From Sulfuricurvum sp. (lineage in GTDB: Bacteria; Campylobacterota; Campylobacteria; Campylobacterales; Sulfurimonadaceae): 64,000 bases of DNA. The notes beneath the pieces were generated by a model. That model ran no database searches, had not been told where the DNA came from, and saw only the letters and a program-made list of their open reading frames with translations. Of the stretch, positions 55,976 through 63,716 are shown in pieces; the stretch's first letter is position 1, and each line of letters starts with the position of its first letter. Made by a program: the position numbers and the translations under genes. The DNA lies in the NCBI RefSeq assembly GCF_028713855.1, contig NZ_JAQTNN010000003.1, positions 124,001 through 188,000 on the forward strand, written 5' to 3'.

Positions 55976-56368
55976 ATGAAAATCGCTGTACCTGTTATGG
56001 ATGAAAATCTAAAAATGGCCGGAAATGCCGGACACACCCCTTATTTTGCCGTATTTAATCTCAGCGGCGGAATGTTTAAAAGTTTTACATTGGAAGGTCT
56101 TCGTGCTAACCCGAAAGCCGCAGGAGAAGAAGATCACGATCATGATGAGCACCATACCTGTGACCACGATGAAGGGGATATGGAACACATCAAAGCCCAC
56201 GACACCATGGCCGATACAATCGAAGATTGTGATTACCTCGTAGTTAAAATGGCGTGCAAGAATACAGCAAAAAGTATGAATAACGTCGGGGTTAAGCTCC
56301 AAAAGTACAACGGAACCGAGGCATTGGCTCCTAAGATTTTAACTGAATTGGCGTCACAATTTAAATAA
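55976..56368 (+). CDS. NifX/NifB-like dinitrogenase cofactor-domain protein with His-rich loop
   Basis: This 130-residue protein has the fold of the NifX/NafY-like domain: MKIAVPVMDENLKMAGNAGH at the start, YFAVFNLSGGMFKS, then DCDYLVVKMACKNTAKSMNN. A loop at about residues 51-72 (EEDHDHDEHHTCDHDEGDME) is rich in His and Asp and should bind metal. The family holds iron-molybdenum or iron-sulfur precursors, but nif genes are not seen here. The AAGGAA site is at 55966-55971. Confidence 0.72.
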   Translation: MKIAVPVMDENLKMAGNAGHTPYFAVFNLSGGMFKSFTLEGLRANPKAAGEEDHDHDEHHTCDHDEGDMEHIKAHDTMADTIEDCDYLVVKMACKNTAKSMNNVGVKLQKYNGTEALAPKILTELASQFK

Positions 56369-58176: not shown

Positions 58177-58665
58177 TTACGGCTCTATAAGCTTAAATGT
58201 CCCCGCCGTCTCATTATATTCCCAATAATCATTACCTTCGGGTTTATGGGCAATATTACGGTCTTTTGCACCTTTACCATCAGTTCGCGTTGCCGATCCA
58301 TAGTATCTTGGAGGCGTAGTGCTATCATCCCTACTCCAATCACCATTTTCGGAATTTTTCAAAAGATTAGTAAAAGGGTTTGCAGCATTCCCCAATTGAG
58401 CTGCAGTAGGATAACCGCTAGCATTGAGTGCTTGTCCCGCATTTCCTGTATTTTGACCGTTTCCCCAATCAAAAGTACACGTATTGGTGATCCATTCTCC
58501 ATGAACGGCGTCAAGTGCACTCTGGACTGATGAAGCGGTAGCAAGTTCGGAAGCGCTTTTGGAGTTATCGGTGAGGTTAGCAAATTTGGGGATTGCCACC
58601 GCCGAGAGAATCCCGATGATGACAATAACAAAGATTAATTCAACTAGAGTAAAGGCAAAACGCAT
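58177..58665 (-). CDS. type IV pilin-like protein
   Basis: This 162-residue prepilin has leader MRFA, then FTLVELIFVIVIIGILSAVA and IPKF, with Glu5 and Ala before the cleavage site. A TASSVQSALDAVHGEWITN helix follows, with a Trp-rich later part. One Cys is present (TCTFDWG). It follows the pilin at 58678-59160 after 12 bp and is cotranscribed with it. This pair is distinct from the pair at 54.7-55.8 kb. Confidence 0.75.
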   Translation of the reverse strand: MRFAFTLVELIFVIVIIGILSAVAIPKFANLTDNSKSASELATASSVQSALDAVHGEWITNTCTFDWGNGQNTGNAGQALNASGYPTAAQLGNAANPFTNLLKNSENGDWSRDDSTTPPRYYGSATRTDGKGAKDRNIAHKPEGNDYWEYNETAGTFKLIEP

Positions 58666-58677
58666 TTTGCGGTAAAG

Positions 58678-59160
58678 TTATTCTGTCAATGGCAAAACAG
58701 TTGCATTTACATCCGGATTAGCACCAGTAAAAATCATACCTGTTTTAACTGTTAACTTTTCTGCAAGTCGTGCTCTCGTAGCAGCCACAGCACCAGAGAT
58801 TGTTGTCGTCATGGTGATTGAACCAGCATTATTATATCCAACTACGAATGTTTGATTAGCACCACCAATCGACACCGTATATGTTGCCGTATCATTAGCA
58901 TTAGATATTACCCATCCATTACCTCTAAAATCGTAGAGTTGTGTCAAATTTACATCTGCCATAGCAACATTGTTTAATTCAACTTCATTTAAATAAGCTG
59001 ACTTTGATGATGTAAGAATATCAGTATAATATTTTACGATATTCGTAAGTTGCGCATTTTCCTGCAGTTGACGAAATTGTGGCACTGCAAGCGCGGCTAA
59101 TACTCCAATAATAACGATGACGAAGATCAACTCGACAAGTGTGAATGCATTACGTTTCAT
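58678..59160 (-). CDS. type IV pilin-like protein
   Basis: This 160-residue prepilin has leader MKRNA, then FTLVELIFVIVIIGVLAALA and VPQF, with Glu5. The body has no Cys and a run of small polar residues (SITMTTTISGAVAATRARLA). It is first of a two-gene pilin operon whose promoter region contains a large dyad at 59204-59245. An AGGAG site precedes the ATG. Confidence 0.76.
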   Translation of the reverse strand: MKRNAFTLVELIFVIVIIGVLAALAVPQFRQLQENAQLTNIVKYYTDILTSSKSAYLNEVELNNVAMADVNLTQLYDFRGNGWVISNANDTATYTVSIGGANQTFVVGYNNAGSITMTTTISGAVAATRARLAEKLTVKTGMIFTGANPDVNATVLPLTE

Positions 59161-61655: not shown

Positions 61656-62372
61656 ATGACGCAAGAAGAGTTAGATGCACTGATGAGCGGTGATATAGAT
61701 TTGGATGAAGCTTATGAAGAAACAGAACTTTCGAGTGTGGGCGAACAAAAAAACGAAGAAGAAAAAGACCTACCTAAAACAGAGTCTGAGCATCAACCAG
61801 AACCGGACACTTATCGTTTATCCGCAATGAACAATTGGCCGCCGCCTCCGACAGATGATAATAAAGTGGTGCATCAACTTGATGATGTTACTAAAGAGAG
61901 CGAAGAAAAAGCTTCTGAGATTTTTGATCTGATCGAAGGAATCAGTAATGATTTGGGTAAAGGAGAAAAAGAGGTTAAGAGCGTTCAATCCGTTATAAAA
62001 AATAATGTTGAGCTCTTTAGTACACTCAGTGCAAAATTCCCTCATGTTGAGGCGTTTAAAACTCAACTGATTCAAAATAATGAAGCACTGGAAAATCTTT
62101 CGTCTATTCTTGAAAAGCTCCAAGATGGCGGGGATACCATTATGAATATAATGGACATCATGCAATACCAAGATATTCATCGTCAAAAAATCGAGAGGGT
62201 TATCAACGTTATGCGCGCCCTCTCTACCTATATGAATCACCTCTTCTCAGGGAAGATAGATGATTCCAAACGGGTTGGTTCTGCTGTCCATATCCATGGA
62301 GACACCAGTACTGAGGATGTTGTAAGCAGCGATGATATCGAAGCATTACTTGCATCTTTTGGGCAAAAGTAG
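61656..62372 (+). CDS. cheZ: CheZ-like chemotaxis phosphatase
   Basis: This 238-residue protein has a helical core with IMDIMQYQDIHRQKIERVI, where Asp173 and Gln177 match the DxxxQ catalytic pair that dephosphorylates CheY. Like remote CheZ proteins of this phylum it lacks close similarity to the enterobacterial form. The N-terminus MTQEELDALMSGD and the C-terminus DDIEALLASFGQK both resemble the FliM-type CheY-binding peptide (SQEEIDALL). An acidic, low-complexity linker joins the N-terminal peptide to the core. AAGGTACGGG precedes the ATG. Confidence 0.82.
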   Translation: MTQEELDALMSGDIDLDEAYEETELSSVGEQKNEEEKDLPKTESEHQPEPDTYRLSAMNNWPPPPTDDNKVVHQLDDVTKESEEKASEIFDLIEGISNDLGKGEKEVKSVQSVIKNNVELFSTLSAKFPHVEAFKTQLIQNNEALENLSSILEKLQDGGDTIMNIMDIMQYQDIHRQKIERVINVMRALSTYMNHLFSGKIDDSKRVGSAVHIHGDTSTEDVVSSDDIEALLASFGQK

Positions 62373-62423: not shown

Positions 62424-63716
62424 TTGAAAAAAGTCGAGCTCCTCTCCCCCGCTGGGAATTTAGAAAAACTCAAAATCGCCATCGATTACGGCGCTGATGC
62501 CGTGTATGGCGGAGTCAGCCACTTTTCGCTGCGTATCCGATCGGGTAAAGAGTTTGATTTAGAGAGTTTCAAAGAGGGGATCGATTACGCTCATGCGCGC
62601 GGTCGCAAAGTCTATGTCACTATCAACGGATTTCCCTTTAACTCTCAGTTAAAACTTCTCAAAGAACATATCGCCACGATGGCATCACTCGAACCCGATG
62701 CGTTTATCGTGGCTACTCCCGGCGTTTTGAAACTCGCTCATCAAATCGCACCCCATATACCGTTACACCTCTCAACCCAAGCCAATGTTATGAATGTACT
62801 GGATGCGCAAGTGTATTATGATATGGGTGCGCGCCGTATCATCGCCGCACGGGAAATTTCACTCAAAGACTTAAAACAGATCAAGCAAGAACTCCCCGAT
62901 TTGGAAATCGAAGTTTTTGTCCACGGCTCGATGTGTTTCGCCTACAGCGGACGCTGTCTGATTTCTACACTGCAAAGCGGTCGTGTTCCTAATCGTGGAA
63001 GCTGTGCCAATGACTGCCGCTTCCCGTATGAAATGTATGCCGCCAATCCTGAAACGGGAACCCTGTTCAAACTCGTAGAGGATGAAGGGATCGGAACGTA
63101 CATCATGAATTCCAAAGACCTCAATCTAGCAAGCCATATCCAAGAGATCATTGATGCAGGATGCATCGATTCGCTCAAAATCGAAGGGCGAACCAAAGCA
63201 CCATACTATGCCGCGATCACTGCTAAAGTTTACCGCCGAGCCATCGATGATTATTATGCGGGGAAAAGTGATCCCGAAGCGTATCAAAAAGAGCTGAATA
63301 CGATGCAAAATCGGGGCTTTACCGATGCCTATCTTGTGAATCGCCCGTTTGAAAAACACGACACACAGAATCTTGATTTTTCAATGATGATGGGAACCCA
63401 TCAGGTAAGCGGTATTGTTGATGAAAGCGGTGAGTACTTCGAGTGCAAATACAAAACATTTCCTAATGATGTTATGGAAATTGTCGCCCCTTCAGATGCA
63501 GTTATTGAAGCAATTGATAATGAAATCGGTACGGTTGAAAACAGAGACGATCAATGGATTATAATTTTCAAACAACTGCTTGCTGAAAACGGCAAAGTGT
63601 GGGATCAAGTCCATAGCGGAAACTTAAACCGCTTTAAACTCCCTATCAAAATGCCTGCCTTTACCTTTTTCCGTATTCCTGCCACTGAAGATATGGGTAC
63701 TGTCACAAAATGTTAA
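62424..63716 (+). CDS. peptidase U32 family protein (TrhP/YegQ-like)
   Basis: This 430-residue protein has the U32 signature EVFVHGSMCFAYSGRCLIS, STQANVMNVL and DSLKIEGRTKAPYYAA. Members of this type (TrhP) take part in hydroxylation of tRNA uridine 34 in several bacteria, although older names say collagenase. Cys residues in GSCANDCRF may bind an iron-sulfur cluster. It starts with TTG at 62424 preceded by AGAGA; no in-frame ATG gives a better N-terminus. purE follows after 19 bp. Confidence 0.85.
   Translation: MKKVELLSPAGNLEKLKIAIDYGADAVYGGVSHFSLRIRSGKEFDLESFKEGIDYAHARGRKVYVTINGFPFNSQLKLLKEHIATMASLEPDAFIVATPGVLKLAHQIAPHIPLHLSTQANVMNVLDAQVYYDMGARRIIAAREISLKDLKQIKQELPDLEIEVFVHGSMCFAYSGRCLISTLQSGRVPNRGSCANDCRFPYEMYAANPETGTLFKLVEDEGIGTYIMNSKDLNLASHIQEIIDAGCIDSLKIEGRTKAPYYAAITAKVYRRAIDDYYAGKSDPEAYQKELNTMQNRGFTDAYLVNRPFEKHDTQNLDFSMMMGTHQVSGIVDESGEYFECKYKTFPNDVMEIVAPSDAVIEAIDNEIGTVENRDDQWIIIFKQLLAENGKVWDQVHSGNLNRFKLPIKMPAFTFFRIPATEDMGTVTKC

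Follow-up and report, generated by a model that had tools for sequence, protein, structure and literature searches.

We analysed a 64,000-nucleotide stretch of a Sulfuricurvum sp. genome (hereafter the window) and focused on a 238-residue open reading frame with an ATG start at 61656..62372 on the forward strand. The frame encodes a CheZ-type phosphatase that carries FliM-like peptides at both ends. The features of this locus are as follows.

61656..62372, + strand: cheZ, a Campylobacterota-type CheZ phosphatase of 238 aa, identified by reading of the frame, profile matches and alignment
61656..61691, + strand: FliM-like N-terminal peptide MTQEELDALMSG, residues 1-12, with a predicted helix at 3-10
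61692..61847, + strand: acidic and variable linker, residues 13-64, predicted to be disordered, with a conserved W-P-P-P stretch at its end
61854..62249, + strand: long helical hairpin, predicted, residues 67-198
62172..62186, + strand: phosphatase active-site motif D-I-H-R-Q (D173, Q177), from alignment and by comparison with the H. pylori D189/Q193 pair
62328..62363, + strand: C-terminal peptide SDDIEALLASFG of the CheY-binding type, residues 225-236, predicted helix
62424..63716, + strand: U32 peptidase / trhP gene downstream of cheZ, named by reading of the frame

The NCBIfam profile NF041271 (Phos_CheZ) matched the protein over residues 1-238 with an E value of 8e-74, at 248 bits against a curated cut-off of 350, and the match to PF04344 was weak (21.4 bits against a cut-off of 30.7). 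Relatives at 31 loci, 19 of them from Sulfuricurvum, showed 49-78% identity to the window CheZ. D173 and Q177 were assigned on the basis of H. pylori CheZ, whose active pair is D189/Q193 (PMC11237671). The two residues sit in MQYQDIHRQKIERV and are invariant across the 31-sequence alignment, and D[IL][HN]RQ is kept in 120 of 127 distinct CheZ relatives. The translated protein ends in SSDDIEALLASFGQK and has a C-terminal peptide of the CheY-binding type, SSDDIEALLASFG, with a helix predicted at 225-236. Campylobacterota cheZ genes of the F3 class have a conserved trhP (U32) gene immediately downstream (PMC9321776); the same cheZ-trhP order is present in the window, with the frame at 62424 read as U32/trhP, which agrees with the F3 class.

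An AF2 model built from the 31-sequence alignment (monomer of moderate confidence, pTM 0.43) contained a helix at residues 3-10, a hairpin formed by 67-127 and 132-198, and a helix at 225-236, with residues 13-64 disordered (pLDDT <50). In CheZ phosphatases, two such hairpins pair in a dimer as a four-helix bundle. A Foldseek search with this model returned no PDB match at E <= 0.001, and 1KMI was not among the best 50 matches listed; the search was uninformative as a test of the CheZ fold. Elsewhere in the window, two tandem ORFs on the reverse strand (58177-59160) have type IV pilin-like N-termini (FTLVELIFVIVIIG), and a small forward-strand ORF (55976-56368) has a His/Asp-rich insert (HDHDEHHTCDHDEGD) and is possibly metal-binding.

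Conservation and occurrence of the N-terminal peptide

A survey of 397 genomes of the phylum detected CheZ in 325 (E <= 0.001). All 82 first-round CheZ loci, that is, every locus with a CheZ match at that stage, start with MTQEELD. In the 31 aligned sequences, which were chosen to span families from the list built with the pattern MTQEELD, residues 1-7 are invariant and residues 8-10 nearly so, and the linker behind them varies. A wider extraction yielded 133 CheZ-like ORFs, 127 of them distinct and with the window's family over-represented; the N-terminal peptide was present in 122 of the 127 (score of at least 20 within the first 18 residues). It was also found in 22 of 22 further CheZ proteins of the family that we call f7, and in L200.

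The five distinct proteins without the peptide comprise four second copies (L060_3, L132, L133, L134), in which the C-terminal peptide is kept, and L138, in which the N-terminal peptide, the C-terminal peptide and the active site are all lost. Three other second copies (L130, L131, L135) keep both ends. L201, from the same genus as L138, begins like it and has also lost the C-terminal peptide, and the FliM peptide is still there in the genomes of both (G062, G070). FliM was found in 38 of the 42 genomes searched for it. CheZ-less genomes occurred both without FliM (G191, G003, G058, G026) and with it (G252, G013, G057). A wrongly chosen start codon is disfavoured as the source of the motif: of 121 ORFs with the motif behind an ATG, 113 have no earlier ATG in the frame, and the upstream residues are mutually unlike by reading.

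Genome-wide counts reject a chance resemblance of the CheZ N-terminus to the FliM peptide. A DNA pattern for QEE[hydrophobic]DAL had two matches in the whole 2.8-Mb genome, namely the window CheZ and FliM, and the reversed pattern had none. Across 120 genomes of the order, the pattern gave 161 matches, with the gene assigned for part of them, against one for the reversed pattern. Two matches occurred in 56 genomes, one in 31, none in 27 and three in 6. Among the three-match genomes, G404 has two FliM copies and one CheZ; the third match lies inside another open frame in G061 and G422, inside a 93-aa stretch in G074, and outside any motif-reading open frame of at least 50 aa in G012 and G224. 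In G018, which has two matches, these are FliM and another ORF. We also scored both ends of 408 distinct ORFs (150 aa or longer) from the fetched DNA, from which CheZ with intact QDIHRQK had been removed beforehand. A FliM-like 9-mer at either end was found in 9 CheZ and 30 FliM and in none of the 369 other ORFs (score of at least 18). These three sets of counts rule out chance; within the window, none of the 54 other ORFs reached a score of 20.

The C-terminal end is less FliM-like than the N-terminal end, with a median score of 24.7 against 32.9 over the 127 CheZ proteins. The C-terminal score fell below 18 in 18 of the 127, ten of which belong to f7, and the N-terminal score fell below 20 in five. 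As an outgroup, we read the CheZ of E. coli and seven beta- and gammaproteobacterial CheZ from plasmid records (Proteus, Cupriavidus, Halomonas, Burkholderia, Pantoea, Aeromonas and Photobacterium). These proteins (structure 1KMI) resemble the window CheZ in the DxxxQ site, the C-terminal CheY-binding peptide, which in these eight is of the DDLL type, and the helical hairpin, which is predicted for the window CheZ. They differ in the N-terminus: a FliM-like peptide was seen there in none of the eight Pseudomonadota proteins, a small sample with no alphaproteobacteria. The CheZ of H. pylori (CheZHP, HP0170) is of the same phylum and gene type as the window CheZ and shows no difference in kind; L080, which we take to be a Helicobacter CheZ, starts with MTQEELDALMSGG. 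An earlier note on this locus had called both ends FliM-like and had given enterobacterial CheZ a C-terminal peptide alone. Both statements are borne out, the first with the N-terminus as the closer copy and the C-terminus as the weaker match, the second by reading of E. coli and the seven further proteins. The alignment across Campylobacterota that the note had proposed as a check shows an N-terminal peptide that does not vary freely.

Agreement with the FliM residues that contact CheY

The N-terminal peptide of FliM, MADILSQEEIDALLD in this genome, and the N-terminal arm of CheZ share a 9-mer core, a position at the extreme N-terminus, the same helix residues and an acidic stretch behind them. 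The CheZ arm differs in being placed on a phosphatase, in lacking FliM residues 1-5, and in having T, L and M in place of S7, I11 and L15, respectively. All 39 fetched FliM loci carry SQ[ED]EID[ASM]LL. The CheZ peptide aligns with FliM residues 6-16, so that CheZ 3-10 corresponds to FliM 8-15. In Table 3 of PMC3774744, the E. coli FliM residues in contact with CheY are D3, S4, L6, Q8, I11, D12, L14 and residue 16, and a contact of L15 comes from a Vibrio model. When bound to CheY, FliM is helical over residues 8-15, and D12-K119 forms a stabilising salt bridge (PMC7012829).

The CheZ N-terminal peptide keeps the contacts Q8, D12 and L14 and has L at the position of I11 and M at that of L15; the core Q-x-E-[IL]-D-A-L-[LM], with its known contact residues, is thus present. 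FliM residues 1-5, including the contacts D3 and S4, are absent from CheZ, and Met1 stands at the position of L6, so that the L6 anchor is absent as well. An initiator methionine before threonine may be removed after translation, which would apply to Met1 of CheZ.

The other side of the interface was examined in the CheY encoded beside prmA in this genome. K119, Y106, V108 and K92 are kept, and G replaces K91. In E. coli, CheY K91 contacts FliM D3 (PMC3774744), and D3 is a residue missing from the CheZ peptide. The closest solved relative of this CheY is H. pylori CheY1 (3GWG, E 3.7e-62), and the two are identical from TTEGGK to LKEKL.

We also compared the FliM and CheZ peptides genome by genome. 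The two genomes with a FliM reading 'DSLL' (G041 and G159, loci L147 and L151, the only two of 39 FliM) also have 'DSL' in CheZ. The CheZ with S in G167, G099 and G095 pair with a FliM reading 'DALL', and these three break the pairing, which leaves co-variation too weak as proof of a shared partner.

Additional linker peptides and loss of the active site

Family f7 is probably Arcobacteraceae, because the long, divergent CheZ of L200 adjoins an ORF that, by reading, encodes a flagellar rod protein (for comparison see PMC9321776). The f7 CheZ proteins (L109-L113, L120-L129, L204-L225) are about 270-385 aa long and begin with M(SM)[ST]QE[ED]IE, and in most the peptide is shifted inward by two residues (MSMSQE). 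Each protein was read from the motif if it had one, and failing that from the beginning of the frame or its first ATG. Linkers were scored with a matrix built from FliM peptides alone (threshold 20), which replaced an earlier regular expression made after viewing f7 sequences. The 15 proteins of the first set held 21 FliM-like 9-mers, where shuffling gave 1.0 on average (max 4, 60 shuffles). In unseen genomes, 13 of 22 proteins held 19 matches in all, compared with 1.5 in shuffled linkers (max 7, 200 shuffles), the remaining 9 of the 22 linkers having no match at the threshold; the catalytic part of this second set, used as a control, gave one match. The 118 non-f7 CheZ gave 3 matches at threshold 20 against 1.35 shuffled (max 5, 20 shuffles), and 9 against 3.8 at threshold 18. 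An AF2 model of L112 (monomer of moderate confidence, pTM 0.35) placed short helices at 5-13, 38-48, 61-72 and 84-97, the sites of its four peptides, and two further linker helices without a scored motif at 112-119 and 149-157.

Several CheZ proteins keep the N-terminal peptide after changes at the active site. L136 and L137 (G281 and G065), from genus g26 in family f2, which is Helicobacter-like by reading, have lost the catalytic Asp, and L136 is also without the Gln. K replaces the catalytic Gln in L108. L139 (G303, from the window's genus) is a CheZ-like open frame of 105 aa in which the active site and C-terminus are absent; its shortness may reflect an assembly error. The peptide-less pair L138 and L201 belongs to g26 as well, with the active-site loss seen by alignment in L138. 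Retention of the peptide in CheZ proteins lacking the active site fits a role other than catalysis, and decay in progress is a possible explanation of the same pattern.

Proposed role of the N-terminal arm

Deletion strains of H. pylori bear on the function of the two ends. CheZ without its N-terminal region (residues 1-39 deleted) is reported to retain its phosphatase function and its role in biofilm formation, both of which were abolished without the C-terminal region (last 12 residues deleted); the same paper calls the N-terminal region 'of unknown function' (PMC11237671). Our literature search found no description of the CheZ N-terminal peptide, and an earlier mention in the H. pylori CheZ papers of 2010 and 2015 is possible. 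Since H. pylori CheZ keeps its phosphatase function without the N-terminal region, the N-terminal arm appears dispensable for catalysis. For the same reason, a need for two grips on two CheY molecules in turnover is unlikely. The earlier two-arm reading is partly supported: the FliM-like ends are there, and competition with FliM may apply.

We propose that the N-terminal arm is probably a second arm for CheY~P or another REC domain that acts apart from catalysis; binding by this arm, its partner and its physiological effect we infer. Each CheZ chain would have two CheY-binding arms, a C-terminal one for catalysis and a FliM-like N-terminal one at the tip of a disordered linker of about 50 residues. 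The N-terminal arm would most likely dock on CheY~P at its alpha4-beta5-alpha5 face, or on that face in the REC domains of CheV or CheA. Once docked, it would capture CheY~P or hold CheZ on REC proteins and so raise the local substrate concentration. It would compete with FliM and would take no part in the catalytic step. The f7 linker, with its several FliM-like peptides, would take the same design further.

A further reading, less likely and put forward tentatively, is that Campylobacterota CheZ is both a phosphatase and a multivalent trap for CheY~P. The N-terminal arm, joined in f7 by up to three or four linker peptides, would then buffer CheY~P or take it from the motor, and this function would persist without the active site, as in L136 and L137.

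Less likely than the preferred reading, too, is that the N-terminal arm mainly docks CheZ on CheV or CheA-REC domains and not on CheY. CheV proteins bear REC domains, and the N-terminal peptide of FliM is a CheY binder, which speaks for CheY as the partner. Candidate docking sites of the other kind exist in the phylum, with three CheV proteins in H. pylori (PMC11237671) and a REC domain carried by CheA in C. jejuni (PMC9665402).

We consider it unlikely that the peptide binds a non-REC partner, such as ChePep, FliY/FliG or another protein of the pole or motor, in which case its likeness to FliM would stem from the FliM peptide touching the same partner. A study by Lertsethtakarn from 2015 reportedly mapped the polar localisation of CheZ to its central domain, which argues against such a role for the N-terminus. 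Most of the kept residues are, moreover, CheY contacts (PMC3774744, Table 3). In favour of a non-REC partner, the polar position of H. pylori CheZ depends on ChePep (PMC11237671, PMC5447363), C. jejuni CheO binds CheZ, FliM and FliY (PMC9665402), and the N-terminal region is reported to be dispensable for phosphatase function in H. pylori (PMC11237671).

An intramolecular role, in which the N-terminal peptide competes with the C-terminal one or packs on the hairpin and so sets CheZ activity by autoinhibition, seems improbable. The two FliM-like ends could compete for one CheY, and the linker in the AF2 model is long; the same model shows a short helix followed by a linker with pLDDT <50, which does not favour packing. 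Conservation through translation initiation or another nucleotide-level signal is very improbable: the initiator Met is indeed precisely where the conserved stretch begins, and Q3 and E4 each have an almost invariant codon (CAA 99/107, GAA 105/108, non-f7 proteins), but in 112 distinct non-f7 proteins T2 is encoded by four synonymous codons, L6 by six, A8 by four and L9 by five, synonymous variation is also seen in matched DNA, and most f7 CheZ place the peptide two residues further in.

Under the preferred reading of a second arm for CheY~P or another REC domain, a parallel is offered by FliY of Bacillus subtilis. FliY, too, combines CheY-P phosphatase activity with a FliM-like peptide at the N-terminus; it differs in its CheC/FliY fold and in being part of the switch, and it is unrelated to CheZ. 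Campylobacterota CheZ would be a second, independent pairing of a FliM peptide with a phosphatase.

These findings give the H. pylori CheZ region 'of unknown function' a concrete hypothesis that is testable with a short peptide. The gain of several such peptides in the CheZ linker is indicated in one family, f7. The results suggest that motor and phosphatase use nearly identical peptides to read CheY~P in most of the Campylobacterota examined that have a CheZ. If so, switching of the motor in these bacteria would hinge on FliM and the CheZ N-terminal arm competing directly through their peptides, which goes further than the one C-terminal peptide found in E. coli CheZ.
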